Source of the DNA: Aquiluna sp. | Lineage (GTDB): Bacteria; Actinomycetota; Actinomycetes; Actinomycetales; Microbacteriaceae | Length of the DNA stretch: 64,000 bases | Direction: 5' to 3' | Assembly (NCBI GenBank): GCA_021741585.1 | Contig: JAIOXN010000003.1 | Location: 62,001 to 126,000, forward strand | Part shown: positions 5,492 through 33,537 of the stretch, piece by piece | Numbering within the stretch: the stretch's first letter is position 1 | Layout of the letters: each line of letters opens with the position of its first letter | Program-made: the position numbers and the translations under genes | The notes under the pieces: model-generated | Told to the model about the DNA's origin: nothing | Database searches by the model: none | What the model saw: only the letters and a program-made list of their open reading frames with translations

Positions 5492-5506
5492 GGTTCTACC
5501 CTATCC

Positions 5507-7294
5507 CTAGACCAGCAGCTGGTGTTTCGCTAGCTCCGCATACAGCGGAGTGCTTTTCACGAGCTCTGAGTGAGTGCCTGTTCCAACAACTTGGCCGTTT
5601 TCGAGCACGATGATCTGATCGCTGTCAACCACTGTTGAGAGCCTGTGTGCAATCACTACCAATGTGCGGTTTTTGGCAACTGCATCAATTGCTTCGCGCA
5701 TTCTTTGCTCGTTTGGTCCATCCAGCGCGCTGGTGGATTCATCAAGCAACAGGATGGCAGGTGCAGCAAGCAATGCTCTGGCGATTGCAAGTCTTTGGCG
5801 CTCGCCTCCGGAGAGCATGATGCCGTTTTCACCAACCTCGGCATCCAATCCTTTTGGATCTCTTGCTAGAACTTCACTGAGATTCACCTGGCCTAAAACT
5901 GCGGTGAGTTCTGCGTCTGTAGCATCAGCTTTTCCAAGCAGCAGGTTGTCTTTTAGGGATCCAGCTAATACGGGCGCATCCTGCTCCACATAACCAATTT
6001 GTTCCCGCAGTGATGCTCTCGAGAAATCGGTTACCCTCTGGCCATCAAGCAGAATCTCACCCGAGGTTGGCTCATAGAAGCGCTCAATCAAGGAGAAGAT
6101 TGTTGACTTTCCGGCACCTGATGGTCCAACAAGAGCAACTCGCGAGCCACGCGGGATTTGTAGGTTTACCGAATTGAGAATCTGCTTCGGTTCTTCATCT
6201 TCGCTTGGCGCATAGTGAAACGACAGTTCCTGGAATTCCAGGGCAATTTCATTCACTGGCTCACGCAAAGACTGGGCTTCTCCGGTTTTTTCCTCAGGGA
6301 TGATCATGATTTCCTGGATGCGAGCCAGTGCCCCAAGTGCTCCCATAACGGAGCTGTAGGCGCCAAAGGCTGAGATTAGTGGCCCAACCATAAAGAACAG
6401 CAAAATCACAAATGTCACAAGCGAAGCGATTGATGTTGCACCAGTTGCAACCCTCAAACCACCTAGTCCCAACACCACAATAAAAGCGGTGTTGAAGGCG
6501 ATTTGGGCGATAGGGGCGACCACTGCAGATAGCTTGGCGATCTTCACGCCCTGGTCATAGGCGGCGGTGGCATCTTTGTAAATCTCTTCGGTTTCGCGCC
6601 CTTCGGCGCGAGCTGCTCGAATGGTTCTAATTGCCCCAAGTGCGCGCTCAACGGATGCGCTCATTGCACCTACTTTTTGCTGAGCTTTCGTGGTGGCAGA
6701 CCTGATTCTTCTTCCCGTAATGGCAATCGCAATGATGGCCAGGAACACAACGCCAAGAGTGGAGCCAAGTAATACGGGGTCGATGAAAGCCATAACTACA
6801 ACGGCACCGGTGAACTGCAGTAGACCGCCTAGGGCATCAACTAACCCCTGGGTCAGAACTGCTCGCAACAAAGTTGAGTCGGAACCGACCCTGGAAACCA
6901 TGTCTCCGATTCTTCTGCGGTCATACTCTGGAATCGGCAGCCTGAGCATTCTGGCCACTAGGGATTTTCTAGTGCTTAGGACAACACCTTCACCTGTTTT
7001 ATAAAGCAAGAAATACTGGAATCCATTCACCAAAGCACCAACCAGAATCAACACCACAATCCCGATCGCAATAAGAGTGAACTCTTCACTAGCTTCAACG
7101 GCGGCAATAACCTGGCCCATCAAAAGTGGTTGCGCGAGCGAGAGGGCTGATGCGACGACCGAGAGAATCAGTGCGAGAGTGAGCGCTTTGCGGTGATCGG
7201 CAAGATAGGGAAGGAGGTCTTTGAGCTTTGCCCTAGGTCCCTTGTATTCGCGGCTTTTTGGGTTCTGGGTTGGGTCCTGCTGGTAGTCGCTCAT
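5507..7294 (-). CDS. ABC exporter, fused permease and ATPase (MDR/MsbA type)
   Basis: A 595-residue half-transporter expected to work as a dimer in the inner membrane. Residues about 35-330 form an ABC type-1 membrane domain with six hydrophobic segments. The ATPase follows, with Walker A (GPSGAGKST) near residue 390, the signature LSGGERQRLAIARA near 495, Walker B (ILLLDESTSALD) near 516 and the H-loop (IAHRLS). The substrate cannot be read from sequence; relatives export drugs, lipids or peptides. It starts 15 bases after the stop of the methyltransferase gene upstream and is probably cotranscribed with it. The spacer is a short direct repeat (AGAGAGTT twice). Its 3' end lies 15 bases from the start of kynU. 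Confidence 0.9.
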   Translation of the reverse strand: MSDYQQDPTQNPKSREYKGPRAKLKDLLPYLADHRKALTLALILSVVASALSLAQPLLMGQVIAAVEASEEFTLIAIGIVVLILVGALVNGFQYFLLYKTGEGVVLSTRKSLVARMLRLPIPEYDRRRIGDMVSRVGSDSTLLRAVLTQGLVDALGGLLQFTGAVVVMAFIDPVLLGSTLGVVFLAIIAIAITGRRIRSATTKAQQKVGAMSASVERALGAIRTIRAARAEGRETEEIYKDATAAYDQGVKIAKLSAVVAPIAQIAFNTAFIVVLGLGGLRVATGATSIASLVTFVILLFFMVGPLISAFGAYSSVMGALGALARIQEIMIIPEEKTGEAQSLREPVNEIALEFQELSFHYAPSEDEEPKQILNSVNLQIPRGSRVALVGPSGAGKSTIFSLIERFYEPTSGEILLDGQRVTDFSRASLREQIGYVEQDAPVLAGSLKDNLLLGKADATDAELTAVLGQVNLSEVLARDPKGLDAEVGENGIMLSGGERQRLAIARALLAAPAILLLDESTSALDGPNEQRMREAIDAVAKNRTLVVIAHRLSTVVDSDQIIVLENGQVVGTGTHSELVKSTPLYAELAKHQLLV

Positions 7295-7309
7295 TTAGTC
7301 TCTAACTCT

Positions 7310-8155
7310 CTAACTCTCTAGTTCTAAATACCCATCCCCAAAGATTTGCTCATTGAGCAGGAAATTAATCTCCGGGAAGGAAAGCGCCTTGGTGAAGGCG
7401 GTGTTATTCGAGAACCTCTCATAATCTAGGCCCTCAATGTGGTCCCAAACTCTTTTGTCCAAAACCCTCAGGAACATCAGAGTCGTGTTCTTCTCTTTTG
7501 GGAAATTCTTCAAAATCTTGCCGCAGCCATATCCAAATACTCGAATTGCAAAATCAGCATCTTCTGGGCTGGATTTTGCAATCAGGTCCTGGTTCTGGAT
7601 TTTTACCTTGCCTCTTTTGGAATCTCTTCTTTCCCAGATCTGGAAGCAGGTGCGAAGTTCATTCTTTTCACCAAATGGAGAGCCGTCCTCTCTCACATAA
7701 TCAACATCGACGTCCTGGTCGTGGATGAGGTGGAAGTTTTGGTCAAGCCGATTCTGTACAGACCACTTGCGCCAGGATCTTGGCACCAAGAAAGCAATCA
7801 CGTCCGAGAACTGCGCAGCGTGATTGAAGAACGGGATAGACAGCGCGTTGTTTCTCCCAAAAGGCGGGTTTGAGATGGTGATTAAGTTTCTCTTAGTGGT
7901 CTTGAAATCCAAGAAGTTTTGCTTTTTTACCTCTTCATGTTTTGGATGCAGGTCAACCGCTTCATAGTTTGTGATGCCAAGAGCTTTAAGAGCATTTAGG
8001 AAGCTTCCGGTGCCACCAGCGGGTTCAAGAAAAGACTTTTCGAGGGGCGAAACTAATTTCTCCAGTAACGATTTTGTGAGCTCCAACGCTAAATCACTTG
8101 GCGTGTAGTACTGCTCGGTACCGGTAACTCTGCGGTTCCCAAGTTTTTCACTCAC
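7310..8155 (-). CDS. Solitary SAM-dependent methyltransferase, DNA N6-adenine type
   Basis: A 281-residue protein with the two hallmarks of amino-methyltransferases: a SAM-binding motif I (FLEPAGGTGSFL) at about residues 43-54 and the catalytic NPPFG (motif IV) at about 95-99. The N-terminal QYYTPSDLA (about 15-23) resembles motif X of N6-adenine DNA methylases, which often reads FYTP. A strand like AFLVPRSWRKW follows, as in that family. No restriction endonuclease, specificity subunit or phage gene is adjacent; the neighbours are ABC transporter genes on both sides. It could be an orphan epigenetic methylase or could act on RNA or protein; NPPF does not decide between these. The GTG start is at 8155. 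Confidence 0.7.
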   Translation of the reverse strand: MSEKLGNRRVTGTEQYYTPSDLALELTKSLLEKLVSPLEKSFLEPAGGTGSFLNALKALGITNYEAVDLHPKHEEVKKQNFLDFKTTKRNLITISNPPFGRNNALSIPFFNHAAQFSDVIAFLVPRSWRKWSVQNRLDQNFHLIHDQDVDVDYVREDGSPFGEKNELRTCFQIWERRDSKRGKVKIQNQDLIAKSSPEDADFAIRVFGYGCGKILKNFPKEKNTTLMFLRVLDKRVWDHIEGLDYERFSNNTAFTKALSFPEINFLLNEQIFGDGYLELES

Positions 8156-8251
8156 CGCACAAACATATCAACTAAATCAGCTGTAGCTATCAGGCTTTGG
8201 TTTGCTAATCTGAAACGCTGGCCAAAGGCGGCAAGAAAGAGAGTTGTCTAA

Positions 8252-9184
8252 TTGGACAATCGTGAAGTTGTGATCCGAGCGCGCGGTCTAAAGAAAACCT
8301 ATAAAGATTTTGCAGCAGTCGACGGTGTTGACTTTGATGTTTATCGCGGTGAAGCATTTGGTCTTCTGGGGCCCAACGGTGCCGGGAAATCCACCACAAT
8401 GAAAATGATTTCATCGGTCTCCCAGAGGACCGATGGCGAGCTCACAATCCTGGGTAAAGAGCCAAACACCCAAGGTCCTGAGATCAGGGCCCACCTGGGC
8501 GTTGTCCCACAAAAGGACCTACTCGATAGAGAGCTCAAAGTTTGGGAGAACCTATTTACCTACGGTCGTTATTTTGGTCTTTCGAGGAAGTGGCTCAAAA
8601 CTAAGGTCGATGAGCTTCTGGAGTTTGCTCAGCTGACCGAAAAACGAAACTCCAAAGCCGATGATCTTTCTGGCGGAATGCAGCGCAGGCTTGCGATTGC
8701 CCGCGGTTTGGTCAACGAGCCTGAAATCTTGTTGCTGGATGAACCAACCACAGGCCTTGACCCTCAGGCCAGGCACATTCTCTGGGATCGCCTGTTCCGC
8801 CTCAAAGAGCAGGGTGTCACTTTGGTTATCACCACCCACTACATGGACGAGGCCGAGCAGCTCTGTGATCGCTTGATCGTCATGGACAAGGGCAAGATCA
8901 TGGCAGAGGGATCCCCAGCCAGTCTGATCAAGGAGTACTCCTCAAAAGAGGTTGTCGAAGTTCGTTTCGGCACCGACAAGAACGAGTCTGCCGCCAAGCA
9001 ACTTGAAGGCCTTGGAGATCGCATCGAGGTCCTGCCAGACCGCATCCTTCTTTACACTGAGAAGGGCGAGGAGCTCCTCGCCAAGATTGTTGATTCGGGT
9101 CTAAATCCGATTACTTCTTTGGTTCGCAGGTCTTCGCTCGAAGATGTCTTCCTAAGGCTCACCGGAAGAACCCTGGTTGACTAA
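8252..9184 (+). CDS. ABC transporter ATP-binding protein (DrrA-like)
   Basis: A 310-residue ATPase of an ABC-2 type exporter. Walker A (GPNGAGKST) is at about residues 38-46, the signature LSGGMQRRLAIARG at about 138-151, Walker B (ILLLDEPTTGLD) at about 158-169 and the switch histidine in ITTHYMDEAEQ near 194. The C-terminal 80 residues match the DUF4162 extension common in DrrA/NodI-type ATPases. The start is TTG at 8252, preceded by a purine-rich ribosome site (AAGAAAGAGAG). The permease gene follows with no gap (stop, then ATG). It powers the two permeases that follow; the exported substrate is unknown. Confidence 0.9.
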   Translation: MDNREVVIRARGLKKTYKDFAAVDGVDFDVYRGEAFGLLGPNGAGKSTTMKMISSVSQRTDGELTILGKEPNTQGPEIRAHLGVVPQKDLLDRELKVWENLFTYGRYFGLSRKWLKTKVDELLEFAQLTEKRNSKADDLSGGMQRRLAIARGLVNEPEILLLDEPTTGLDPQARHILWDRLFRLKEQGVTLVITTHYMDEAEQLCDRLIVMDKGKIMAEGSPASLIKEYSSKEVVEVRFGTDKNESAAKQLEGLGDRIEVLPDRILLYTEKGEELLAKIVDSGLNPITSLVRRSSLEDVFLRLTGRTLVD

Positions 9185-10018
9185 ATGGCAGAACTGAAAT
9201 TCGCTCCCGGAGGAGCGGTGGATACCCAGAAGGCGATTCGATTCGGCGCGCTCAGGGTGGCCGAATATCGCTTTTACTCGATGAGCAAGTGGATGACGGC
9301 AGTCATTGCTTTTGGCCTTGGCAACCCAATCTTGTATTTGGTTTCTGTCGGTCTTGGTATTGGTGCTTTGGTAGACGCCAATACCGGTGGCGGTGGAGTT
9401 TTGGGTGTTCCATATCTTCAGTTTGTTGCTCCGGCACTTTTGGCAACCGCTGCAATCCAGGGCGTTATGGATGAGGTGACTTTCCCGACTATGGACGGCT
9501 TTGTCTGGGACAAGTTGTTCTTTGCAATCAATGCCACCAGTGTTTCCTCAAGGCAGATCGCCGATGGCGTGATGATTACAGCATTGGGTCGAGGGCTTTT
9601 TACCACTCTGATGTATTTGGGAGTGCTTTTGGGCTTCGGGGCAATTCCGCTTTCAAGCGCATTGCCACTTCTTTTCTCTTCAATGCTTGCCGCTTGGGGT
9701 TGGTCAGCCGTGATGTTGGCAGTTACCGCAAGGCTAGAGAATGACGAGGGTTATTTCGCAATTATTGGCCGGTTTGTCGTGGCACCAATGTTCTTGTTTT
9801 CCGGAACTTTTTACCCGCTCGAGCAAATGCCAATCTTCTTGCAGCCGCTTGGATGGATATCTCCTCTTTGGCACGCGACCCAGCTGGGTCGATTCTTGGC
9901 ATACGGAATGCCGATTGAGACCTGGTTGGTAGTTGTGCACTTTGCCTACTTGGCTCTAATGGGTGTTATTGGAATGCGGTTTGTTTATCCAAAGTTCGCA
10001 GAAAGGCTGTCTCGATGA
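9185..10018 (+). CDS. ABC-2 type transporter permease (first of two)
   Basis: A 277-residue integral membrane protein with about six hydrophobic segments and the ABC-2 arrangement of a cytoplasmic N-terminus, a short amphipathic stretch and a late FSGTFYPLEQMP motif (about residues 201-212), typical of DrrB/NodJ permeases. It begins directly after the ATPase stop and overlaps the next permease by four bases (ATGA). Two unequal permeases with one ATPase suggest a heterodimeric channel. Relatives export drugs, glycolipids or lipo-oligosaccharides; nothing here identifies the substrate. Confidence 0.88.
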   Translation: MAELKFAPGGAVDTQKAIRFGALRVAEYRFYSMSKWMTAVIAFGLGNPILYLVSVGLGIGALVDANTGGGGVLGVPYLQFVAPALLATAAIQGVMDEVTFPTMDGFVWDKLFFAINATSVSSRQIADGVMITALGRGLFTTLMYLGVLLGFGAIPLSSALPLLFSSMLAAWGWSAVMLAVTARLENDEGYFAIIGRFVVAPMFLFSGTFYPLEQMPIFLQPLGWISPLWHATQLGRFLAYGMPIETWLVVVHFAYLALMGVIGMRFVYPKFAERLSR

Positions 10019-21748: not shown

Positions 21749-22834
21749 TTGAAACTAAAGACTGCATCTGCAGCTTTTGCTCTAATTGGAGCGTCTGCAC
21801 TAGTTCTCTCTGGCTGCGCCGCAGCTCCAGAAGAGACTCCAACTGAGACTGCGACCGCAACTGAGTCCGCAGCCCCAACTATCGACTACCTAGCCTGTGC
21901 AGTATCAGACGAGGGTAGCTGGAACGACAAGTCCTTCAACGAGTCCGTTTACGACGGTATCGAGAAGGCAGAAGCTGAGCTAGGCGTTCAGATTGCTGAC
22001 GCAGAGTCCAACTCAGCAGAAGATTTTGCTCCAAACCTTCAGGCAATGGTTGACCAGGGCTGTGACGTTACCTTCGCAGTTGGCTTCAACCTAGTTGCAG
22101 ATGCAAACGCAATTGCAGCAGCTAACCCAGAGATGAACTTCGTAACCATCGATGGTTGGTCAGAGGGCAACGCAAACCTAAAGCCAGTTGGCTACGCAAT
22201 GAACCAGTCCAGCTACCTAGCTGGCTACGTTGCAGCTGCTTACTCAACAACCAAGGTTGTTGGAACCTACGGTGGAATCCAGATTCCTGCCGTTACTGAC
22301 TTCATGGACGGTTTCTACGCAGGTGCAATGGCATGGGGCGCAGAGAACGGCGTTGACGTGAAGGTTGTCGGTTGGGACAAGGTTGCACAGACCGGTCAGT
22401 TCATCGGTGACTTCACTCCAAACTCCGGAACCTCAAAGTCAATTGCAGCAGCGTTGATCAACGAGGGTGCTGACGTATTGTTCCCAGTAGGTGGCGACCA
22501 GTTCGGCGCATCATCTGAGGCAATCAAGGAAGCTGGCATTGACGGCGTCATGATCGGTGTCGACAAGGACGTAGCTCTAACCAGCCCAGAGTACGCATCA
22601 ATGGTGCTTACCTCAGCTGAGAAGCGCATGACCAACGCTGTTTACGACATCATTGCTGAGCTATCAGCTGGTGGCGCATTCTCCGGCGAGCAGTACACCG
22701 GTACCTTGGCAAACGGTGGAACCGGCCTAAGCCCGTTCTACGAGTTTGACTCCAAGATTGACGACGCCACCAAGGCACGTCTAGCCGAGATCGAAGCAGG
22801 CATCATTGCTGGCGAGATCGACCCACTGAGCTAG
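21749..22834 (+). CDS. BMP-family nucleoside-binding lipoprotein
   Basis: The substrate-binding lipoprotein of an ABC importer; relatives (PnrA, BmpA) bind purine or other nucleosides. The TTG start has a strong AGGAGGAA site. The signal peptide ends in the lipobox LSGC (Cys23), followed by a T/E/A-rich linker (about 25-45) and then the two-lobed BMP fold (CAVSDEGSWNDKSFNE near 52). Codon use is unlike the neighbours: 12 of 19 leucines are CTA. This suggests very high expression. A terminator-like hairpin follows the stop and separates it from the ATPase and permeases, which would give an excess of binding protein. Confidence 0.93.
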   Translation: MKLKTASAAFALIGASALVLSGCAAAPEETPTETATATESAAPTIDYLACAVSDEGSWNDKSFNESVYDGIEKAEAELGVQIADAESNSAEDFAPNLQAMVDQGCDVTFAVGFNLVADANAIAAANPEMNFVTIDGWSEGNANLKPVGYAMNQSSYLAGYVAAAYSTTKVVGTYGGIQIPAVTDFMDGFYAGAMAWGAENGVDVKVVGWDKVAQTGQFIGDFTPNSGTSKSIAAALINEGADVLFPVGGDQFGASSEAIKEAGIDGVMIGVDKDVALTSPEYASMVLTSAEKRMTNAVYDIIAELSAGGAFSGEQYTGTLANGGTGLSPFYEFDSKIDDATKARLAEIEAGIIAGEIDPLS

Positions 22835-22850
22835 TCTCAAATAGCATCAA

Positions 22851-22887
22851 AAGGGGGCCGCAGGTTTTGCCTGCGGCCTTCTTATTT
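22851..22887 (+). terminator. Intrinsic terminator-like hairpin between BMP gene and transporter genes
   Basis: GGCCGCAGG (22856-22864), a five-base loop TTTTG and CCTGCGGCC (22870-22878) form a nine-pair GC-rich stem, followed by TTCTTATTT. It lies inside the operon, 17 bases after the BMP stop and 33 bases before the ATPase start, so partial readthrough or a second promoter is needed for downstream genes. Confidence 0.85.
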
Positions 22888-22919
22888 GCAGGTAGTGTTA
22901 TTGCACAAAGGAGTGCCTA

Positions 22920-24425
22920 GTGAAGTTAGAGTTGCGCGGAATAACCAAGCGCTTCGGAACACTGGTAGCAAATGCTTCAATTGACCTAACGGTCAATCCT
23001 GGTGAGATCCACGCCCTATTGGGTGAAAATGGCGCAGGGAAATCCACCCTGATGAATGTCCTGTATGGCCTTTATACGGCCGACGAGGGCGAAATCCTAT
23101 TGGACGATAAGGTCCAGAAATTTTCAGGTCCTGGCGATGCCATGGCCGCTGGTATCGGAATGGTCCACCAGCACTTCATGCTGATTCCAGTCTTCACAGT
23201 TGCCGAGAATGTTGCATTGGGCAATGAACCCACCGGTGTTCTTGGAACACTCAAGCTTGCCGAAGCTAGGCAGAGAGTTTTAGATATCTCAAAGCAGTTC
23301 GGCTTCAATGTTGACCCGGATGCCTTGATCGAGGATTTGCCAGTCGGCATCCAGCAACGAGTTGAAATCATCAAGGCCCTCTCGCGCGATGCAAAGGTTT
23401 TGGTCTTAGACGAGCCAACTGCGGTCTTGACTCCTCAGGAAACCGACGAGCTGATGGACATCATGCGCCAGCTTGCGAAAAACGGCACTTCAATTGTTTT
23501 TATTACCCACAAGCTTCGTGAGGTGAAAGAGGTTGCTGACAAGATCACCGTAATCCGTCTCGGCAAGGTGGTTGGATCTGCATCTCCTTCAGCATCAACA
23601 AATGAGCTTGCCTCTTTGATGGTTGGCCGTGAGGTTGATCTCAAGGTCGATAAGGCCCCAGCGCAACCCAAGGATTTGGTACTTAGCGTTGATGCAGTTT
23701 CCGTGCTGGACGATCGGTCGCAGCGAGCGGTCGACTCAGTTAGTTTCGAGGTTCGTGCTGGTGAGATTCTGGCAATCGCAGGAGTTCAAGGCAATGGCCA
23801 AACCGAGTTGGCTGAGGCACTGCTTGGATTGCGGCCAGTTATCAAAGGCTCCGGCACAATCAAGCTTGGCGACAAGGACATCACTGAGGCATCTGTGAAA
23901 CAGGTTCTAGAAGCTGGCGTTGCATTCGTTCCAGAGGACCGCAAAAAAGATGGTTTGGTTGCAGAGTTTTCTGTGGCCGAGAACCTAATGCTCGATTCAT
24001 CCTTCAAGTCCCGCTTCACAAAAGGACTCAACATTAATCTCAAGGCAAGACGCAAAATTGCCGACGACCTGGTACAGGAGTTCGATGTCAGAACTCAAAC
24101 TTCAGATTCACCAGCCGGCAAGCTTTCTGGTGGAAATCAACAGAAGGTTGTTGTGGCGCGAGAGCTTTCCCGAGAGGTCAAACTCTTGGTTGCGTCCCAG
24201 CCAACTCGCGGTGTTGATGTTGGTTCAATCGAATTTATTCACGAGCGCATTGTCGCCGAGCGTGACGAGGGTAAGGCTGTTGTTCTAGTCTCCACCGAGC
24301 TCGATGAGGTTTTGGCTCTGGCGGATCGGATTGCTGTGATGTACCGAGGAAAGATTGTTGGCATTGTTCCGCCAACGACTTCCAGATCAGATCTTGGAAA
24401 GCTCATGGCGGGAGTAAGCGCATGA
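22920..24425 (+). CDS. Nucleoside ABC transporter ATP-binding protein (two ATPase domains)
   Basis: A 501-residue protein with tandem ABC domains, as in NupA/RbsA-type importers. Domain one has Walker A GENGAGKST (about residues 36-44), a reduced signature LPVGIQQRVEIIKAL and Walker B VLVLDEPTAVLT. Domain two has a degenerate Walker A GVQGNGQTE, the signature LSGGNQQKVVVARE and Walker B-like LLVASQPTRGVD, where Asp-Glu is replaced by Ser-Gln. Such asymmetry is normal for this family. The GTG start has AAAGGAG upstream. It overlaps the following permease by four bases. Confidence 0.93.
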   Translation: MKLELRGITKRFGTLVANASIDLTVNPGEIHALLGENGAGKSTLMNVLYGLYTADEGEILLDDKVQKFSGPGDAMAAGIGMVHQHFMLIPVFTVAENVALGNEPTGVLGTLKLAEARQRVLDISKQFGFNVDPDALIEDLPVGIQQRVEIIKALSRDAKVLVLDEPTAVLTPQETDELMDIMRQLAKNGTSIVFITHKLREVKEVADKITVIRLGKVVGSASPSASTNELASLMVGREVDLKVDKAPAQPKDLVLSVDAVSVLDDRSQRAVDSVSFEVRAGEILAIAGVQGNGQTELAEALLGLRPVIKGSGTIKLGDKDITEASVKQVLEAGVAFVPEDRKKDGLVAEFSVAENLMLDSSFKSRFTKGLNINLKARRKIADDLVQEFDVRTQTSDSPAGKLSGGNQQKVVVARELSREVKLLVASQPTRGVDVGSIEFIHERIVAERDEGKAVVLVSTELDEVLALADRIAVMYRGKIVGIVPPTTSRSDLGKLMAGVSA

Positions 24426-25654
24426 CAAAAAAAGAAGTGAATCAAGATGGTTTCAACCAGGCGATGAAGGAGATTCTCGCCGGAGGTGCCACCAGAACAA
24501 TTCTTTCGGTGCTGCTTGGATTCCTGGTCGGTGCCATTTTCATGGTGATTTCCAATAAGGAGTTCATCGAGGGATTGGGTTATTTCTTCTCGAGACCCGG
24601 AGATTCTTTAGGGGCCGCTTGGCAAGTCGTGTCAGATGGCTACGGCGCGCTATTCCGCGGTTCGATTTACAACGCTGATGCTGACACCTTTGAGAAGGCA
24701 ATTCGCCCGCTCACCGAAACCCTGCGCCTAGCAACACCGCTGATTGCAGCCGGACTCGGAATCGCTCTCACATTCAGAGTGGGACTATTCAACATTGGTG
24801 GAACCGGACAGCTAATCTCCGGAATGATTTTTGCAACCTTTGTTGCAACCAAGGTTGAACTTCCATTCTTGCTCCACATGCTGGTTGCTGTGATTGCGGC
24901 AATCATCGGTTCAACTTTGATGGGTGCACTGATCGGCTTCTTGAAAGCCAGAACAGGTGCCCATGAGGTGATCCTCACCATCATGTTCAATTACGTGATG
25001 CTGTATCTGTTCACCTTCATGCTCAGAGAGCAATCTCTTTTGCAGGGCGAGGGAATCATCGGAAACCCAAAGGCAGATCCAGCTGCAGAGAATTCTCTTC
25101 TGCCAAAGCTTTTGGGTGACAGCTATTCGCTGACCTGGGGTTTGATTTTGGCGCTGATGGCTGTCGTGGTTTATTGGTGGCTGATGGAGCGATCCACAAT
25201 CGGATTCCGACTTCGAATGGTTGGGTTCAACCCTGATGCAGCCAAAACTGCCGGTGTGAATGTGAATCGTACCTACATCCTTGCAATGGCTCTTTCGGCT
25301 GCATTTGTTGGAGTCGCAGCTGCAAACCAGACTCTTGGAACCGCTATTGGAGTTACCCCTTCGTCGCACGCAAACATTGGTTTTGATGCCATTACTGTTG
25401 CCCTCCTTGGTGGCTCTACAGCCCCTGGTGTCCTGATGGCAGGCTTGCTGTTCGGAGCTTTCAAGGCTGGTTCTCCTTCGATGCAGGTGATTGGTATTTC
25501 TCCAGAGGTGTTGGGCATCGTGCAGGGAGCAATCGTGCTCTTTATCGCTGCCCCTCCTTTGATCAGGGCGCTTTTCGGTCTTCCTAAGCCTCAAACCAGC
25601 AATGTGTTGGGCAAGTTGCGAAGTCGAATCTTTTCGAGGAAGGTGACCAAATGA
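24422..25654 (+). CDS. Nucleoside ABC transporter permease 1
   Basis: A 410-residue membrane protein of the branched BPD-transport family 2 (RbsC/NupP/NupB class). About ten hydrophobic segments are seen, with the conserved cytoplasmic loop LRMVGFNPDAAKTAGVNV (about residues 262-279) that contacts the ATPase. It has a long N-terminal cytoplasmic stretch and a large extracytoplasmic loop (about 45-100), as in BMP-linked permeases. The ATG overlaps the ATPase stop, and the gene overlaps the next permease by four bases. Confidence 0.92.
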   Translation: MTKKEVNQDGFNQAMKEILAGGATRTILSVLLGFLVGAIFMVISNKEFIEGLGYFFSRPGDSLGAAWQVVSDGYGALFRGSIYNADADTFEKAIRPLTETLRLATPLIAAGLGIALTFRVGLFNIGGTGQLISGMIFATFVATKVELPFLLHMLVAVIAAIIGSTLMGALIGFLKARTGAHEVILTIMFNYVMLYLFTFMLREQSLLQGEGIIGNPKADPAAENSLLPKLLGDSYSLTWGLILALMAVVVYWWLMERSTIGFRLRMVGFNPDAAKTAGVNVNRTYILAMALSAAFVGVAAANQTLGTAIGVTPSSHANIGFDAITVALLGGSTAPGVLMAGLLFGAFKAGSPSMQVIGISPEVLGIVQGAIVLFIAAPPLIRALFGLPKPQTSNVLGKLRSRIFSRKVTK

Positions 25655-26901
25655 GCTCGTTAGTCACTGAAACCAAGATTGGCTTCAAAGCTCCTATCGT
25701 TATGGCGGCAATCGGTCTTGTTGTTCTCGTCTTCTTCGGATTGCTTGGCCGTGATGGGATGGCGAATTTTCAAATCTCTCGCCGCCAAGATGCGATTCAG
25801 TTGCCAGATGTTCCTATTGACTCGAGCCTTCTTGGGGTTGTTTCTGGAATCTTGATGTTGGCTTTGGCCGGATTCTCGCTTTGGCTGACACTTCGCAATC
25901 GCAAGACTCGAATGTGGAGCATTTCAATTTTTGGTTTCTTGGGAATTGTTTCGCTGCTTGGCTGGCTGGCTGCCGATAACTCGGTCCCAGTGAGCTTTAT
26001 TGCAGGAACCGCTCTGGTCTTGGCGGTGCCAATTGTGCTCGGTGCAATGGGTGGGGTCATGAGCGAGCGCTCAGGAATCACAAACATTGCCATCGAAGGG
26101 CAGTTGCTCACCGGTGCATTCATGGCGGCGGTTGTCTCCACTATCACCGGTAGCTTCACGCTGGGAATCATCTCGGCGATGGTTGCGGCAGCGCTGCTTT
26201 CGATGATTCTGGCGGTATTCGCACTGCGGTTCCTGGCTCAGCAGATCATCGTCGGTGTGGTGCTGAATGTTTTGGTGATTGGTGTGACCAACTTCTTGTA
26301 TCAACAGTGGTTGACTCAAGACAGCGAGAACACCAACTTCCCTGGCACCCTGGACATCATCAAGATCCCATTCCTAAGTGATATTCCGATCATTGGTCCA
26401 GTTCTATTTGAAAACAGAATCACAGTGTTCGCTGCCCTTTTGATTGTCCCAGCGCTTTGGTTTGTCTTGTTCAAGACCAAGCTTGGCCTAAGGGCTAGGG
26501 CGGTTGGCGAGCACCCGCTTGCTGCCGACACTGTTGGCATCAATGTTGCCCGAACCAGATTCTGGTGGGTGACAATTGGCGGAGCAATCGCAGGCCTTGG
26601 TGGCGCAGCATTGACCATTGGAAATGCTGGTGCCTTCGGTCGCGAGATGTCTGGTGGCTTTGGATTCATTGCCCTTGCGGTTGTGATTCTTGGTCGCTGG
26701 CACCCAATCTCCGCTTCCTTGGCAGCGTTGCTATTTGGCTTCTCAATCATTTTGCGAGTCTGGGCAAACCAGGTGAGCCCGGGTATTCCATCGGACTTCA
26801 TCACGATGGTTCCTTATGTTGTGACGATTATTGCCGTGGTCGGATTTGTTGGTAAGTCCCGCCCACCAAAGGCAGTAGCCGTCCCATATGTGAAGGGTTA
26901 G
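25651..26901 (+). CDS. Nucleoside ABC transporter permease 2
   Basis: A 416-residue membrane protein of the same family as permease 1 (BPD-transport 2), with about ten hydrophobic segments. The ATPase-contact loop LRARAVGEHPLAADTVGINV lies at about residues 275-294, and the GGVMSERSGITNIAIEG motif at about 133-149. Together with the two-domain ATPase and the BMP lipoprotein it completes a nucleoside importer. Its stop lies two bases before the cdd start, tying transport to salvage. Confidence 0.92.
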   Translation: MSSLVTETKIGFKAPIVMAAIGLVVLVFFGLLGRDGMANFQISRRQDAIQLPDVPIDSSLLGVVSGILMLALAGFSLWLTLRNRKTRMWSISIFGFLGIVSLLGWLAADNSVPVSFIAGTALVLAVPIVLGAMGGVMSERSGITNIAIEGQLLTGAFMAAVVSTITGSFTLGIISAMVAAALLSMILAVFALRFLAQQIIVGVVLNVLVIGVTNFLYQQWLTQDSENTNFPGTLDIIKIPFLSDIPIIGPVLFENRITVFAALLIVPALWFVLFKTKLGLRARAVGEHPLAADTVGINVARTRFWWVTIGGAIAGLGGAALTIGNAGAFGREMSGGFGFIALAVVILGRWHPISASLAALLFGFSIILRVWANQVSPGIPSDFITMVPYVVTIIAVVGFVGKSRPPKAVAVPYVKG

Positions 26902-26903
26902 AA

Positions 26904-27299
26904 ATGGAAATCAATTGGGATCTGCTTCGCGAAGAAGCCAAGCTTGCTATGGCTAAGGCGTACGCACCCTATTCAAAGTTTCCGGTTGGTGCTGCAGCCC
27001 TGACTGACTCGGGAAAGATTATTTCCGGTGCAAACGTTGAGAACGCTTCCTATGGATTGGGGCTTTGCGCCGAGTGTTCGTTGGTTAGCGAGCTTTTCCG
27101 CCAAGGTGGCGGAAAACTAGTTGCCTTTGCCTGTGTTGACGGTCACGGAAATGCGCTGATGCCCTGCGGCAGATGCCGGCAATTGCTTTTCGAGCACCGA
27201 GCTCCCGGGATGCTTTTGGATACGGTCTCCGGCATCAAGACAATAGACGAAGTTTTGCCTGATGCATTTGGGCCAGAGGATTTGGAGATCCGCAAATGA
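26904..27299 (+). CDS. cdd: Cytidine deaminase
   Basis: Zinc hydrolase turning cytidine and deoxycytidine into uridine and deoxyuridine. The 131-residue length fits the homotetrameric class. Zn ligands and the catalytic Glu are present in GLCAECSLV (about residues 52-60) and PCGRCRQLL (about 89-97). The substrate-side stretch YAPYSKFPVGAA is near 16-27. It follows the permease by two bases and overlaps deoA by four bases, placing it firmly in the nucleoside operon. Confidence 0.96.
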   Translation: MEINWDLLREEAKLAMAKAYAPYSKFPVGAAALTDSGKIISGANVENASYGLGLCAECSLVSELFRQGGGKLVAFACVDGHGNALMPCGRCRQLLFEHRAPGMLLDTVSGIKTIDEVLPDAFGPEDLEIRK

Positions 27300-28573
27300 C
27301 ATTCAGTGCAGTTGAACTAATTATTAAAAAACGCGAGAAGCAGGAACTCTCAAAAGCGGAGATTGATTGGCTAATCGATAACTACACCAAGGGCACAGTT
27401 GCCGACGAGCAAATGTCTGCATTTGCGATGGCGGTTCTTCTCAACGGTATGGCGCGCTCCGAAATCAAAGACCTAACGATGGCAATGATTGCCTCCGGGG
27501 AGACTTTAGATTTCCAGGGGCTTTCGATGCCAACCGCCGACAAGCACTCAACCGGCGGTGTCGGTGACAAGATCACTTTGCCTCTTGCTCCTCTGGTCGC
27601 ATCCTACGGAGTCGCGGTTCCTCAGCTAAGTGGTCGTGGCCTTGGCCACACCGGTGGAACGCTGGACAAGCTTGAAGCAATTCCTGGCTGGCAGGCATCG
27701 CTCTCCAACACAGAGATGTATTCGCAATTGGCAGAAATTGGTGCGGTGATTTGTGCTGCCGGTACGGGCCTGGCCCCTGCCGATCGCAAGCTTTATGCCC
27801 TGCGCGATGTCACCGGAACGGTTGAAGCGATTCCACTAATTGCATCCTCAATTATGAGCAAGAAGATTGCCGAGGGCACCCAAGCTTTGGTTCTGGATGT
27901 CAAGGTCGGCTCCGGTGCATTTATGAAGACGCTAGACCGCGCCACAGAATTAGCTCAGACTTTGGTTCAGCTTGGTAAGGATGCCGGAGTGAGAACCTCC
28001 GCACTTTTGACCGACATGTCAACTCCTTTGGGACTCAAGATCGGTAACGCTTTGGAGGTAGAGGAATCTATCGAGGTGCTCACCGGTGGTGGACCGCAGG
28101 ATGTGATTGATCTGACCGTTGCCCTGGCTAAGGAAATGCTTGAGCAGGTTGGCATCACAAATGTTGACCCAAGAGAGAATCTCTCAAATGGCAAGGCAAT
28201 GGACATCTGGCGCAAGATGATTACCGCTCAAGGTGGCGATGTCGATGCACAGCTTCCAAAAGCCAAAGAATGGCATCAGATCAAAGCTACCCAATCTGGA
28301 TACATCTCTAGATTGGATGCACTCGAGGTTGGAATCGCATCCTGGAGACTCGGAGCCGGTCGTGAGCGCAAAGAGGATCAGGTGCAATTTGGTGCCGGAA
28401 TCGAGCTGCATGCTCAACTTGGCGACAGGATTGAGGCTGGTGCTCCGCTTATGACTTTGTATACCGACACCCCAGAGAAATTCGAAAGGGCCATTGAATT
28501 GGCTGAGAAATCGACCACCATTTCAGATGGTCAGGCCGTCGAGCGTAAGCTCATCCTTGGCAAAATTAGTTAG
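27296..28573 (+). CDS. deoA: Thymidine / pyrimidine-nucleoside phosphorylase
   Basis: Phosphorolyses thymidine, deoxyuridine or uridine to base and pentose-1-phosphate. At 425 residues it is full length. The phosphate-binding motif KHSTGGVGDK is at about residues 82-91, and the family signature SGRGLGHTGGTLDKLEAIPG at about 112-131. The C-terminal PYNP domain follows. It receives uridines made by cdd upstream. Its pentose-phosphate product would be isomerised by the mutase at 31034. The ATG overlaps the cdd stop. Confidence 0.95.
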   Translation: MTFSAVELIIKKREKQELSKAEIDWLIDNYTKGTVADEQMSAFAMAVLLNGMARSEIKDLTMAMIASGETLDFQGLSMPTADKHSTGGVGDKITLPLAPLVASYGVAVPQLSGRGLGHTGGTLDKLEAIPGWQASLSNTEMYSQLAEIGAVICAAGTGLAPADRKLYALRDVTGTVEAIPLIASSIMSKKIAEGTQALVLDVKVGSGAFMKTLDRATELAQTLVQLGKDAGVRTSALLTDMSTPLGLKIGNALEVEESIEVLTGGGPQDVIDLTVALAKEMLEQVGITNVDPRENLSNGKAMDIWRKMITAQGGDVDAQLPKAKEWHQIKATQSGYISRLDALEVGIASWRLGAGRERKEDQVQFGAGIELHAQLGDRIEAGAPLMTLYTDTPEKFERAIELAEKSTTISDGQAVERKLILGKIS

Positions 28574-28579
28574 GAAATA

Positions 28580-29671
28580 ATGGACATCCGCTCGCTCCCA
28601 AAGATCTCGCTTCACGACCACTTAGATGGCGGCCTTAGGCCCCAAACCATCATTGAGCTGGCCGCCGAGATAGGTCACAAACTGCCTGCGGACAACGCTC
28701 TCGACCTAGCCAATTGGTTTGCCGAGTCGGCGAACTCCGGTTCATTGGTGCGATATCTCGAGACTTTTGACCACACCGTTGCTGTCATGCAAAACCGCTC
28801 TGGCCTTGAGCGAGTTGCTTACGAGGCTGTTCTTGATCTTGCTGATGAAGGCGTCATATATGCCGAGCTTCGCTGGGCACCCGAGCAGCACCTTGCAGGG
28901 GGCCTAACTCTAGATGACGCTGTTGAAGCAGTGCAGGACGGTCTTGAGCGAGGGATGGAAGAGGTTGCCGACCAAGGTGGATTTATCCGCACCGGTCAGC
29001 TGGTGACTGCCATGCGTCACGCGGATCGAGGCTTGGAAATTGCAGAGCTTGCTGTTCGCCACAGGAACAATGGCGTGGTTGGTTTTGACATCGCCGGAGC
29101 CGAGAAGGGCTTTTTGCCAGTGCGCCACAAGGCAGCTTTTGACTACCTTGCGAGTCAACTGTTCCCTTGCACCGTTCACGCAGGTGAGGCCGATGGCGTC
29201 GAGTCAATCAGGGATGCAATTGTTTCGGGGCGAGCTCTTCGCCTAGGGCACGGAATCCGAATTATCGAGGACATCATGTTCTCTCGCACCGAAGGCGACA
29301 CTGACCTGGTTGTTCTTGGGGATGTGGCGCAGTGGGTTCACGATCGCGGCATCACACTGGAGACTTCGCCGTCTTCAAACTTGCAGACTGGCGCCTTTGA
29401 AATGCTCGGTGACACGATGGCGGATCACCCATTTGATGTTTTGTATGACCTTGGCTTCAAGGTCACCGTGAACACCGACAACCGCTTGATGTCTGCAACC
29501 AATTTGACCAAGGAGCTTGAGATTTTGGTTGACACCTTCGGTTACACGCTTGCCGATCTAGAGGTATTCCAAATCAACGCCGCAGATGCTGCTTTCCAAG
29601 GCGTGCCGGAGCGCGAAGAGCTAATTGAAATGATTGAACTTGGATTCGCTGAGGCGATGGGTGATAGCTAA
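28580..29671 (+). CDS. add: Adenosine deaminase
   Basis: Zinc enzyme converting adenosine and deoxyadenosine to inosine and deoxyinosine, which punA can then split. 363 residues. Metal ligands and catalytic residues are seen in SLHDHLDGGLRP (His13 and His15 region), HAGEADG (about 200-206), GHGIRI and the late NTDNRLMS with the metal Asp. It lies seven bases after deoA. The following PTS IIA gene starts inside its last codons, so the two are coupled. Confidence 0.95.
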   Translation: MDIRSLPKISLHDHLDGGLRPQTIIELAAEIGHKLPADNALDLANWFAESANSGSLVRYLETFDHTVAVMQNRSGLERVAYEAVLDLADEGVIYAELRWAPEQHLAGGLTLDDAVEAVQDGLERGMEEVADQGGFIRTGQLVTAMRHADRGLEIAELAVRHRNNGVVGFDIAGAEKGFLPVRHKAAFDYLASQLFPCTVHAGEADGVESIRDAIVSGRALRLGHGIRIIEDIMFSRTEGDTDLVVLGDVAQWVHDRGITLETSPSSNLQTGAFEMLGDTMADHPFDVLYDLGFKVTVNTDNRLMSATNLTKELEILVDTFGYTLADLEVFQINAADAAFQGVPEREELIEMIELGFAEAMGDS

Positions 29672-30110
29672 AGCTTTCGGGCCCAGCTCCATAGACATAT
29701 CAACTGAGAAACTCAGTTGGCTGGAGGCTCTTGAGCGCTCGGTTAACCTGCTTGTAGAAAGCGGCAGAACCAAACCGGAGTATTTCGAACAGGTGTTGGC
29801 ATCCACTCAGAAGCTGGGTCCGTACTTTGTGGTGGCTCCCGGAATTGCAATCGCACATGCTGCCCCATCCAGTGCCGTTTTAGAAACAGGGTTCGCGTTG
29901 TTGAAGCTGGAAAAGCCCGTGGCATCGGGCTCAATCAACGATCCGGTGAGCTTGCTCTTTTCCTTCGCTTCGGTTGATTCCGAATCCCATATCGAGTTAT
30001 TGGGGGAGTTTGCGAACATGATGAGCACCCCCGGCAAGGTTAACCTTTTGTTAAATGCTTCCGCTATTGGGGAAATCCGGGATATTTTGTCCGAGAACTT
30101 GGTTGGATAG
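29661..30110 (+). CDS. PTS EIIA component, mannitol/ascorbate class (no IIC nearby)
   Basis: A 149-residue single-domain PTS_EIIA type 2 protein (Mtl/Fru/Sga class). The phosphoryl-accepting His is His66 in PGIAIAHAAP, and the usual flanking helix and strand pattern is present. I place the start at GTG 29661, eleven bases inside the end of add, with GAGG at proper spacing; the longer frame to 29634 has no such support. It pairs with the IIB gene four bases downstream. No IIC permease, EI or HPr gene is in the window. It could phosphorylate an external IIC or could be regulatory within the nucleoside operon. Confidence 0.88.
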   Translation: MIAKAFGPSSIDISTEKLSWLEALERSVNLLVESGRTKPEYFEQVLASTQKLGPYFVVAPGIAIAHAAPSSAVLETGFALLKLEKPVASGSINDPVSLLFSFASVDSESHIELLGEFANMMSTPGKVNLLLNASAIGEIRDILSENLVG

Positions 30111-30114
30111 CTGA

Positions 30115-30387
30115 GTGAAGATTTATGCGGTTTGCGGTGCTGGGATTGGCACCTCTGTTTTGTTGAAGTCGAATATCGACAAGGTTTTGTCGGTTTTGGA
30201 TATCGAAGCTGAGGTTTCTGCCGTTTCAATCGCAACTGCAATGGATGCAGAATCACCTGCCCAGGTGGTGCTGATTACCCCTGAATTGCAGGATCAAATC
30301 AAGGGAATCGCCTCTGAGGTAATCACCATCGACAACATCTTTGACCTGGGCGAACTAACCCAGAAATTGAGCGCATCGCTGAGCTAG
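30115..30387 (+). CDS. PTS EIIB component, lactose/ascorbate (SgaB/UlaB) class
   Basis: A 90-residue IIB protein with the phosphocysteine loop near the N-terminus: Cys7 in VCGAGIGTSVLLKSNI. The rest is an alternating alpha/beta domain (TPELQDQI, then VITIDNIFDLGEL), as in UlaB. The GTG start lies four bases after the IIA stop. IIA and IIB of this class normally act with a IIC of the UlaA family to import ascorbate-like sugars; here the transporter genes upstream are ABC type instead. The next gene starts nine bases on and looks unrelated. Confidence 0.88.
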   Translation: MKIYAVCGAGIGTSVLLKSNIDKVLSVLDIEAEVSAVSIATAMDAESPAQVVLITPELQDQIKGIASEVITIDNIFDLGELTQKLSASLS

Positions 30388-30396
30388 GCTCAGAGC

Positions 30397-31062
30397 ATGT
30401 CTAGTCCTGGATCCACGCCAAAAACCACCCTGAATCGGCTTTCTTATAAGGCTTCAGATAAGCAAAGCGATCTATATTCAATTCTGGATTCCAACCTGGT
30501 TGCCCACGTTGGTTTTGTGATTGATGGTGCCCCATTTGTAATACCCATGGCCTATGGCCGGGTCGGAGATGTGATTTATCTGCACGGATCCTCTGGTTCT
30601 CGAATCATGCGGGCACTAGCTTCAAATCCTCAGGTTTGTGTTTCGATCACCGAACTCAATGCTTTGAAGGTTGCAAGAAGCACCTTCAACTCAGGGATGC
30701 ACTACCGCTCTGTTGTGATTTTTGGTCAAGCGGATTTGGTTCCAGATGATCAAAAGGATGCAGCACTTGATGCCATTAGCGACGCAATGATTCCTGGGCG
30801 CGTGAAAGAGGTTAGGTCCTCGACCAAGAAGGAGCTAGCTGCAACCCTCATCATTTCGCTACCGCTAACTGAAACCTCAGTGAAGATCTCGGTCAACGAA
30901 GTTGATGATCCCGAAGAAGACATGAACAAGGGGTATTGGGCTGGGACTGTGCCAATCATCACAAGCATTGGCGAGATTATTCCGGCCGACGAGGAAGCTG
31001 CCAGCCTTCCAATTCCAGAGAGCGTGAAGAACTTTAGGACAGGCCTTGCAAAAGGTCTTTAG
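30397..31062 (+). CDS. Pyridoxamine 5'-phosphate oxidase-related FMN-binding protein
   Basis: A 221-residue protein of the FMN-binding split-barrel superfamily (COG3467-type). Visible features: LNRLSYKASDKQSDLYSIL at the N-terminus, the barrel strands AHVGFVIDGAPFVIPMAYGRVGD (in two parts, about 37-59), the HGSSGSRIMRAL loop (about 65-76) that binds the flavin phosphate in relatives, and MHYRSVVIFGQA. The reaction is unknown; relatives are flavin reductases or pyridoxal-type oxidases. It is the last gene of the nucleoside run and overlaps the convergent mutase by 29 bases tail to tail. Confidence 0.82.
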   Translation: MSSPGSTPKTTLNRLSYKASDKQSDLYSILDSNLVAHVGFVIDGAPFVIPMAYGRVGDVIYLHGSSGSRIMRALASNPQVCVSITELNALKVARSTFNSGMHYRSVVIFGQADLVPDDQKDAALDAISDAMIPGRVKEVRSSTKKELAATLIISLPLTETSVKISVNEVDDPEEDMNKGYWAGTVPIITSIGEIIPADEEAASLPIPESVKNFRTGLAKGL

Positions 31063-32665
31063 CCCAGGTTTTTAGGCTCTCTAGAGTCACATCCGCGCCC
31101 TCTGCGCTGTCGCCTTGAACCTGCAAATAACACTTGAGCTTTGGCTCTGTCCCAGATGGCCTAATAATCACTCTCAGTCCATCTGTTTTGAGCAGTATGC
31201 CGTCGGTTGGAGGCAGGTTTTTGCCTTCTTTCAGATCCTCGTAACTGCAGGGCTGGCCAAGAATCTCGCCTACTGGATTGGCTCTCAGGCCTGCCATGAT
31301 TTTTGAGATGATGCTGAGGTCGCTAACCCTGATTGAAACTTGGCCGGTTGCCAGGTGACCATATTCTTGAGCAAGTTCGGCCAAAAAGTCACCCAAATCC
31401 TGTCCCTTAGATTTGAGGTCGGCCGCAAGTTCTGCGATGAGTAATGCGGCTGTGATGCCATCTTTGTCCGGTGTGAAGTTGGGATCTACGCAATATCCCA
31501 ATGCTTCTTCGTAACCAAAGATTAGATTTTCGACCTTTGATATCCACTTGAATCCGGTGAGGGTGGCTTGATAATTCAAGTTGTGTTTTCTAGCAACCTT
31601 TTCAAGGCCCGCAGAAACAATCGAGTTAGCAAGGGTCCCGGTTTTGTTCTCTCTGGCAACAACCTCGCCGAGAATCAACCCGACCTCATCACCGGTGAGC
31701 ATTAGATAAACGCCATCGCGATTGACTGCAATCGCCAAGCGATCGGCATCCGGGTCATTTGCAATAATCAGTTCGCTTTGATTCTCTCGGCCATGAGCGA
31801 AGGCCAAATCCATGGCTCCCGGCTCTTCGGGATTGGGAAATGCAACGGTTGGGAAGTTGCCATCTGGATCGCGTTGTTGAGGGACGGCGTTTAGCAAGAA
31901 ACCTGCACTGTTGAAAATTGGCTCAATCACTTTGTAGCCAACCCCATGCATCGCGGTGTAGCTGATTTTTAGATTCTGCCTTGCTGAGTTCTTGGCTTCG
32001 ATGAGCTCAAGTGCACGGTCCTGGTAAGCGGAAATTTCATTCTGGCCTAGAGGCTCAATCTCAGAACCCTTTGGGATATCTGCAAAGGTAACGCTGCTGG
32101 AGATTTGATCGATTAGATCTGAAATTTCAGCATCCTGCGGGCTAATTAGTTGGCTTGAACCGTTATCCCCACCCAGATAAACCTTGTAGCCATTATCTCT
32201 TGGGGGATTGTGGCTTGCCGTGACAACTACGGTCGCACTCGAGCGGTGAGCTCTACCCGTGAAGGCTGCAACTGGGGTCGGCACCATCTGGTCAAAAAGC
32301 ATCGCCTTGATTCCAGCGCCAGCAAGAATCTCGGCGGTGTCTTTTGCAAAAACATCGGAGTTGTGCCTGCCATCAAAGCCGATAACAACGCTTAGCTCCT
32401 GATTGCTATCCAAATAGGCGGCACGATTGTTTTGAAGAAAGCGGGCAAGTGCCAGCGCTGCCCAACCAACCACCACACGGTTCATTCTGTTCGGTCCGGC
32501 ACCCAACTCGCCTCTGAGTCCGGCAGTCCCGAACTGCAGACGGGTGGCGAACCTGGCTTCGAGTTCTGCCAATGCCTCTTCCTCAACAAGTTTTTCTAGC
32601 TCAGCTTTGGTCTGAGCATCAGGATCTTGCTGGATCCAGGCTTTGGCGATCTCAAGGTAATTCAT
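31034..32665 (-). CDS. Phospho-sugar mutase (PGM/PMM or phosphopentomutase role)
   Basis: A 543-residue alpha-D-phosphohexomutase. The phosphoserine is Ser151 in TASHNPPRDNGYK, the metal loop is NDPDADRLA (near 289) and the C-terminal phosphate-binding RPSGTEPKLK is near 506. It shares a TAATG junction with punA upstream, so it is coupled to purine nucleoside phosphorolysis. That context suggests conversion of (deoxy)ribose-1-phosphate to the 5-phosphate, as proposed for PGM2-type enzymes, rather than mannose metabolism. A phosphoglucomutase role cannot be excluded. Confidence 0.88.
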   Translation of the reverse strand: MNYLEIAKAWIQQDPDAQTKAELEKLVEEEALAELEARFATRLQFGTAGLRGELGAGPNRMNRVVVGWAALALARFLQNNRAAYLDSNQELSVVIGFDGRHNSDVFAKDTAEILAGAGIKAMLFDQMVPTPVAAFTGRAHRSSATVVVTASHNPPRDNGYKVYLGGDNGSSQLISPQDAEISDLIDQISSSVTFADIPKGSEIEPLGQNEISAYQDRALELIEAKNSARQNLKISYTAMHGVGYKVIEPIFNSAGFLLNAVPQQRDPDGNFPTVAFPNPEEPGAMDLAFAHGRENQSELIIANDPDADRLAIAVNRDGVYLMLTGDEVGLILGEVVARENKTGTLANSIVSAGLEKVARKHNLNYQATLTGFKWISKVENLIFGYEEALGYCVDPNFTPDKDGITAALLIAELAADLKSKGQDLGDFLAELAQEYGHLATGQVSIRVSDLSIISKIMAGLRANPVGEILGQPCSYEDLKEGKNLPPTDGILLKTDGLRVIIRPSGTEPKLKCYLQVQGDSAEGADVTLESLKTWAKDLLQGLS

Positions 32666-33486
32666 TAGAGCTTGGCAACAATCTCCGAGAGCAGCTTGCC
32701 GATTCTGGCCTCTGCATTTCTTCCAGCCTCAAGCACCTCGGCATGGGATAGCGGAGTGCTCTGGATGCCCGCAGCCAGGTTGGTGATCAACGACATACCA
32801 AGAATCTCCATGCCAGCTTCCCTAGCTGCAATTGCCTCCAGGGCGGTAGACATGCCAACAATGTGTCCACCCATGGTCTTTGCCATTTGGACTTCAGCCG
32901 GGGTCTCGTAGTGAGGTCCGCGGAATTGCACGTAAACACCCTCGTCCAGACTCGGGTCGACCTCTCTGGCTAAATCTCTCAGGCGCTTTGAATAAAGATC
33001 GGTCAGATCAATGAAGGTCGCGCCCTCCAATGGGCTGTTCGCGGTGAGGTTGATGTGATCAGAAATCAGAACGGCTGCGCCACCGGCCCACTCCGGCTTT
33101 ATTCCTCCGGCACCATTGGTCAAAATCATGGTCTTTGCTCCGGTGGCGGCTGCGGTTCTTACTGAGTGAACCACGGCGCGAACGCCGTGGTTTTCGTAGT
33201 AGTGAGTCCTGGCGCCGATGACCAAAGCATGCTTACCATTTGGCAGCTTGATGGAGCGAATTGTTCCGACGTGGCCAACAACTGCCGGCTTTGAGAACCC
33301 AGTGATTTCACTACCAGGGATTTCTGCAACTGTCTCGCCAATCAAGTCGGCGGCCTTTGCCCATCCTGAACCTAGCGTCAGGGCGATGTCGTGAGATTCA
33401 ACACCGGTTTTTTGGGCAATTTCTTGGGCGGCTTTTTTGGCAATTTCGAAGGGATTTGCGTTCTCATCATTGAGTGGATTGGTCAT
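32665..33486 (-). CDS. punA: Purine nucleoside phosphorylase
   Basis: Splits inosine, guanosine and deoxy forms to base and pentose-1-phosphate. 273 residues from ATG 33486; a TTG one codon earlier is possible. Trimeric PNP class features: LTLGSGWAKAADLI (phosphate-binding Ser), VVGHVGTIRS, GARTHYYENHG (His/Tyr pocket), LTNGAGGIKPEW, and GMSTALEAIAAREAGM with the Glu/Met pocket. It is divergent from the flavoprotein gene at 33538 and coupled to the mutase downstream. With cdd, deoA and add on the other strand it completes nucleoside breakdown. Confidence 0.95.
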   Translation of the reverse strand: MTNPLNDENANPFEIAKKAAQEIAQKTGVESHDIALTLGSGWAKAADLIGETVAEIPGSEITGFSKPAVVGHVGTIRSIKLPNGKHALVIGARTHYYENHGVRAVVHSVRTAAATGAKTMILTNGAGGIKPEWAGGAAVLISDHINLTANSPLEGATFIDLTDLYSKRLRDLAREVDPSLDEGVYVQFRGPHYETPAEVQMAKTMGGHIVGMSTALEAIAAREAGMEILGMSLITNLAAGIQSTPLSHAEVLEAGRNAEARIGKLLSEIVAKL

Positions 33487-33537
33487 CAAATCAGTCTAGC
33501 GATGGTCAATGTCCTGATTGTGCGGGAGAATACTCCT

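Follow-up and report, generated by a model that had tools for sequence, protein, structure and literature searches.

A permease-less PTS IIA-IIB gene pair behind the adenosine deaminase gene of Microbacteriaceae: a candidate regulatory branch for purine-nucleoside salvage

Introduction

In a 64,000-nucleotide stretch of Aquiluna sp. DNA (the window), the adenosine deaminase gene is followed by genes for a IIA and a IIB protein of the PTS. What do phospho-carriers typical of a sugar transporter do in a nucleoside salvage locus that encodes no permease for them? Most known regulatory PTS branches without a permease come from Proteobacteria. Through binding that depends on its phospho-state, EIIANtr inhibits GlmS (PMC5024086), and Brucella has a permease-free PTS with enzyme partners (PMC2937029). 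Here we analyze whether the pair serves a permease encoded elsewhere or is better explained in another way.

Results

The pair lies in a nucleoside salvage locus

The IIA gene (29661..30110, forward strand, GTG start) encodes a 149 aa protein of the ascorbate/mannitol class that has no cognate IIC, and the IIB gene (30115..30387, forward strand, GTG start) a 90 aa protein of the ascorbate/galactitol class. IIA matches Pfam family PTS_EIIA_2 (PF00359, E 1.9e-26) and carries phospho-His66 inside the motif APGIAIAHAAP; IIB matches PTS_IIB (PF02302, E 4e-13), and its phospho-Cys7 is part of the P-loop motif VCGAGIGTS. The first 11 nt of IIA lie within add, whose stop codon is at 29669-29671, and a gap of 4 nt separates the IIA stop, which ends at 30110, from IIB. 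These coordinates and Pfam matches confirm the original prediction that the window contains two single-domain genes coupled to add and to each other. The NCBIfam model nearest to IIA is that of UlaC (PRK10372), with a score under its cut-off. The PtsN model scored 22.4 bits against a cut-off of 138.7; since the UlaC model scores best, IIA does not belong to the PtsN subfamily. AlphaFold models of IIA (pLDDT 93; top PDB match 3oxp, TM 0.89) and IIB (pLDDT 90; top match 3czc, PtxB, TM 0.83) resemble the IIA and IIB of ascorbate- and mannitol-class PTSs.

The genes upstream, all on the forward strand, begin with a likely nucleoside importer (21749..26901) composed of a BMP-type lipoprotein (gene start 21749), an ABC ATPase (22920) and two permeases (24422 and 25651). 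They continue with cdd for cytidine deaminase (26904..27299) and a deoA-type pyrimidine-nucleoside phosphorylase gene (27296..28573), both assigned by open reading frame, sequence and synteny, and with add (28580..29671), assigned by synteny and by NCBIfam NF006847 (2.4e-158, above cut-off). Convergent with the pair, on the reverse strand, are the genes for a phosphohexomutase-family enzyme (31034..32665) and a purine-nucleoside phosphorylase, pnp (32665..33489; NCBIfam TIGR01698, 3.3e-91, above cut-off). The mutase scored far under the GlmM cut-offs. It is a putative phosphopentomutase, with a likely role in salvage. A gene for a PPOX-fold flavin or F420-type oxidoreductase (30397-31062) follows IIB and shares 29 nt with the convergent mutase gene; it was found at that place only in Aquiluna and some Rhodoluna-like genomes.

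The add-linked pair is a family-wide trait of Microbacteriaceae

Gene neighborhoods were read for 40 loci of family genomes and 80 named loci, plus loci from other families of the order. There were 103 add-linked, IIC-less IIA loci (88 with and 15 without IIB) and 51 IIA-IIB-IIC operons, and not a single locus was both add-linked and IIC-linked. Thirteen further IIA loci fell into neither class, some of them ended by contig ends. As some loci were present in two collections, 83 add-linked and 31 IIC-linked rows were left at less than 90% identity. The add-linked type was present in 35 genera (26 GTDB genera in which IIB accompanies IIA and ten in which IIA stands alone, with one genus in both groups), among them Aquiluna, Rhodoluna, Leifsonia, Clavibacter, Mycetocola, Okibacterium and Cryobacterium. 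Genomes G239 and G078 contain both locus types. In the loci read from other families of the order, no IIA/IIB locus occurred with add, and nearly all had a IIC. Conservation of the synteny in 35 genera excludes chance as the cause of the add-pair arrangement. The linkage to add, for which the original prediction had only the window, thus holds across the family without an adjacent IIC at any of the 103 loci. We conclude that the add-linked pair is an old, family-wide trait of Microbacteriaceae that has IIC-bearing sister copies.

The steadiest neighbors of the pair are add, the convergent mutase gene and pnp. In the synteny analysis add was the constant upstream neighbor of IIA, and the mutase gene adjoined 26/26 add-IIA-IIB and 15/15 add-IIA loci with enough sequence. 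The importer is a usual but not a constant neighbor, and ABC genes are missing within 7 kb of some pairs.

A search of plasmids with IIB gave only distant relatives (at most 37% identity among the matches listed), and our search of the open-access literature found no account of an add-linked, IIC-less pair. One metagenome-assembled genome labeled Auritidibacter (locus L099, CAMAQN010000007.1) has an add-linked locus most of whose genes are 74-87% identical to those of the Aquiluna window, to which it is about as close as Aquiluna loci are. This genome is probably misnamed or contaminated.

Loss of IIB and relation to IIC-bearing operons

We fetched 34 family genomes with EI and add in which IIB was not detectable. 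IIA alone was present downstream of add in 15 of them (ten genera), several of these loci having no space for IIB ahead of the next gene, and the remaining 19 kept add without either gene. The absence of both IIA and IIB from 19 of these 34 EI-positive genomes shows that the system is dispensable. In the IIA/IIB tree, the IIA-alone rows are scattered among the add-linked rows (5 changes). Their occurrence at several positions in the tree indicates that loss of IIB probably happened repeatedly.

A single clade of all add-linked genes was not rejected (AU p 0.35). The add-linked genes look like derivatives of an ordinary, Ula-like IIA-IIB-IIC system that lacks its permease. The two IIC-bearing relatives that were checked, loci L122 and L156, have the gene order transketolase / ROK regulator / IIA-IIB-IIC, and the IIC of L122 scores over the NCBIfam cut-off for the ascorbate IIC. 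The transketolase and ROK-family regulator genes stand beside the IIC-bearing operon at about 4100-9870 in these loci. Such neighbors suggest that the substrate of the ancestral PTS was ascorbate- or pentose-like. The three arrangements, IIA-IIB-IIC, IIA-IIB and IIA alone, would represent natural stages of a transporter becoming a switch.

The transketolase gene adjoining IIC-bearing relatives also bears on another explanation, namely that the pair phosphorylates an acceptor other than a IIC (a pentose or salvage enzyme intermediate) as chemistry and not as a signal. DhaM, which supplies phosphate to dihydroxyacetone kinase, is a model for such a function, and the fixed place of the pair among nucleoside and pentose-phosphate genes would suit it. 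However, IIA alone is enough in ten genera and the locus contains no conserved kinase-like acceptor gene, and we consider this explanation unlikely.

PTS inventory of the host genome

The host genome comprises 1,386,222 bases on 3 contigs and is 99.76% complete. It encodes one EI and one HPr, at C1:664.6-666.5 kb, within a mannitol cluster consisting of genes for a regulator, IIC, IIB, IIA, MtlD, HPr and EI. In the mannitol PTS, IIC, IIB and IIA are each encoded by a separate single-domain gene (locus L087, 4560-9545). The N-terminal domain of EI gave a rather weak Pfam match (1.1e-13). With its 542 aa, the EI open reading frame is too short to include a GAF domain, and dedicated EINtr and NPr paralogues were not found in the genome. 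A fructose-class IIA-IIB-IIC set is present as well, so that the three EIIA_2 proteins of the genome are those of the mannitol, the fructose and the add-linked systems.

The IIC searches of this genome covered two families, PF03611 (EIIC-GAT) and PF02378. The profile search of the whole genome with PF03611 detected no UlaA/GatC-type IIC. As a UlaA-type IIC from a Cryobacterium relative is detected by the same model (E 4.8e-123), poor sensitivity is an unlikely cause of this absence. Two IICs of the PF02378 class were found, each with its own adjacent IIA and IIB. The absence of IIC, EI and HPr from the window, as originally described, therefore stands: EI, HPr and both PF02378 IICs are encoded outside it. 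A role of the pair as the missing IIB source for the mannitol or fructose PTS was rejected, as both have their own IIB.

At the level of the family, where counts of genomes are not independent of one another, IIB was detected in 277/398 genomes and an EIIC-GAT gene in 57/398, with both present in 53; thus 224 of the 277 IIB-bearing genomes are without any EIIC-GAT gene. These results argue against the view that the pair serves a IIC encoded elsewhere, for instance the mannitol or fructose IIC of the host, in ordinary sugar transport. Two PF02378 IICs do exist in the genome, and cross-talk between PTS proteins within one superfamily is known in general. Yet both of these IICs are self-served, the host has no IIC of the Ula/Gat class, and neither the linkage to add nor the repeated loss of IIB while IIA stays fits such a function. 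Transfer of phosphate to a distant IIC, one of the two roles originally suggested, is therefore not upheld, in view also of the 224 genomes mentioned and of the ten genera that keep IIA without IIB, and we regard it as quite unlikely.

A permease of an unrecognized IIC family, or one outside the two families searched, could in principle serve the pair. The IIC-bearing sister pairs, however, all have a PF03611 IIC directly after IIB, and downstream of the add-linked pair there is no conserved gene for a membrane protein, which makes this explanation very unlikely.

Selection and active sites

The phospho-His is kept in 103/103 add-linked IIAs, including all 15 encoded without IIB, and the phospho-Cys in 88/88 add-linked IIBs. 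Between close relatives the dN/dS of IIA and IIB ranges from 0.04 to 0.18, which shows purifying selection. Judged by these features, IIA and IIB look like working phospho-carriers. Although IIA evolves faster than the neighboring genes and one or both genes are gone in some genera, it is hardly credible that they are functionless relics of a lost sugar PTS, given these dN/dS values, the phospho-residues kept without exception and the retention of the genes in streamlined genomes of 1.1-1.5 Mb. Carriers of the pair include streamlined freshwater plankton, which keep few unneeded genes.

Co-occurrence with EI

EI (PF05524) was detected in 369/398 family genomes. IIB was present in 275 of the 369 EI-positive genomes and in 2 of the 29 EI-less ones (Fisher p 2.7e-13, not corrected for ancestry). 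Among the 19 add loci that were read in EI-less genomes, 17 had neither IIA nor IIB; in genomes G183 and G177, add is directly followed by the mutase gene. The two EI-less exceptions are fragmented drafts, G317 (81% complete, 380 contigs) and G396 (92% complete, 130 contigs), and EI may be absent from these assemblies rather than from the genomes. When both drafts were left out, a test controlled for ancestry gave 2 independent pairs for and 0 against the association, which with so few pairs is not significant; in the tree used, G288 was scored as IIA-less though its pair lies ~4 kb from add, and the add sequence of L056 is a fragment.

In many genomes of several genera (G106, G258, G354, G080, G103, G302 and others) ptsI, the gene for EI, is located 7-23 kb from add. 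EI and add were within 40 kb of each other in 25 of 36 same-contig cases, which were hand-picked and hence non-random; this is not so in the host genome. Because in several genera no more than about 25 kb separates IIA from EI, their joint loss could be partly regional.

A proposed regulatory role in purine-nucleoside salvage

The IIA gene occurs with EI, keeps its phospho-His, outlasts IIC and sometimes IIB, and stays behind add. A regulator fits this behavior better than a transport protein does. We therefore favor, with moderate confidence, the reading that the pair is an IIC-less, phosphorylation-dependent regulatory PTS branch acting on purine-nucleoside salvage. This agrees in outline with the second role originally suggested, sensing of the phospho-transfer state to control nucleoside uptake: the IIC-less linkage to add, the conserved phospho-residues and the co-occurrence with EI support a link between phospho-state and nucleoside metabolism. 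The choice of ABC-driven uptake as its target did not hold up equally well, as add, the mutase gene and pnp are steadier neighbors than the importer genes.

We infer phosphotransfer, regulatory output, partner and sign of the effect as follows. EI and HPr, common to the mannitol and fructose PTSs, would phosphorylate IIA at His66, and in genomes that have IIB the phosphate would then move on to Cys7 of that protein. The share of phosphorylated protein would report the state of PEP and sugar uptake. One form of IIA or IIB would bind, and alter the activity of, a protein encoded in the co-transcribed locus; the first candidates are adenosine deaminase and the nucleoside importer, the mutase or a nucleoside phosphorylase being less likely. 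As a result, nucleoside use would be held back during flow of PTS sugars. The branch would have originated from a Ula-like IIA-IIB-IIC system by loss of IIC, followed in several genera by loss of IIB. In its most specific form, the proposal is that a free-standing IIA-IIB, or in several genera IIA alone, directly controls adenosine deaminase or the nucleoside importer, driven by PEP, and that this control evolved in Actinobacteria from a permease-stripped sugar transporter. We put this forward tentatively, as a possibility. It makes control of nucleoside use by sugar supply directly testable.

Comparison with known systems

The nearest relatives of IIA and IIB in sequence and structure belong to the L-ascorbate-class PTSs (UlaABC; PtxA/PtxB of Streptococcus mutans). 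The pair shares with them a PF00359-class IIA with a phospho-His and a IIB with a phospho-Cys P-loop, and IIC-bearing operons of this class occur as its sisters within Microbacteriaceae. It differs from them in that it has no UlaA-type IIC, is linked with nucleoside salvage instead of ascorbate or pentose genes, and can dispense with IIB.

Like PTS-Ntr (EINtr-NPr-EIIANtr) and the permease-free PTS of the Brucella type, the pair has a IIA of the same fold superfamily without a IIC, kept where EI exists. Unlike in PTS-Ntr, its putative EI and HPr would be those of the sugar PTSs and not dedicated paralogues; moreover, its IIA is closer to UlaC than to PtsN, a IIB is present, and the genes are part of a nucleoside operon. 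Having phospho-carriers without a cognate IIC, the pair probably belongs to the general kind of permease-free regulatory PTSs. This kind is already known; here, operon structure would bind such a branch to one particular pathway across a large family of Actinobacteria.

In the inducer exclusion of enteric bacteria, one phospho-form of EIIA-Glc restrains a non-PTS importer or enzyme. It offers a model for how the pair may work, although the IIA families are unrelated. P~IIB usually acts on PRD regulators. Such an action was rejected for the host genome, which has no PRD regulator, nor do the seven genomes of the same genus that were searched; a PRD regulator was present in 8/24 genomes.
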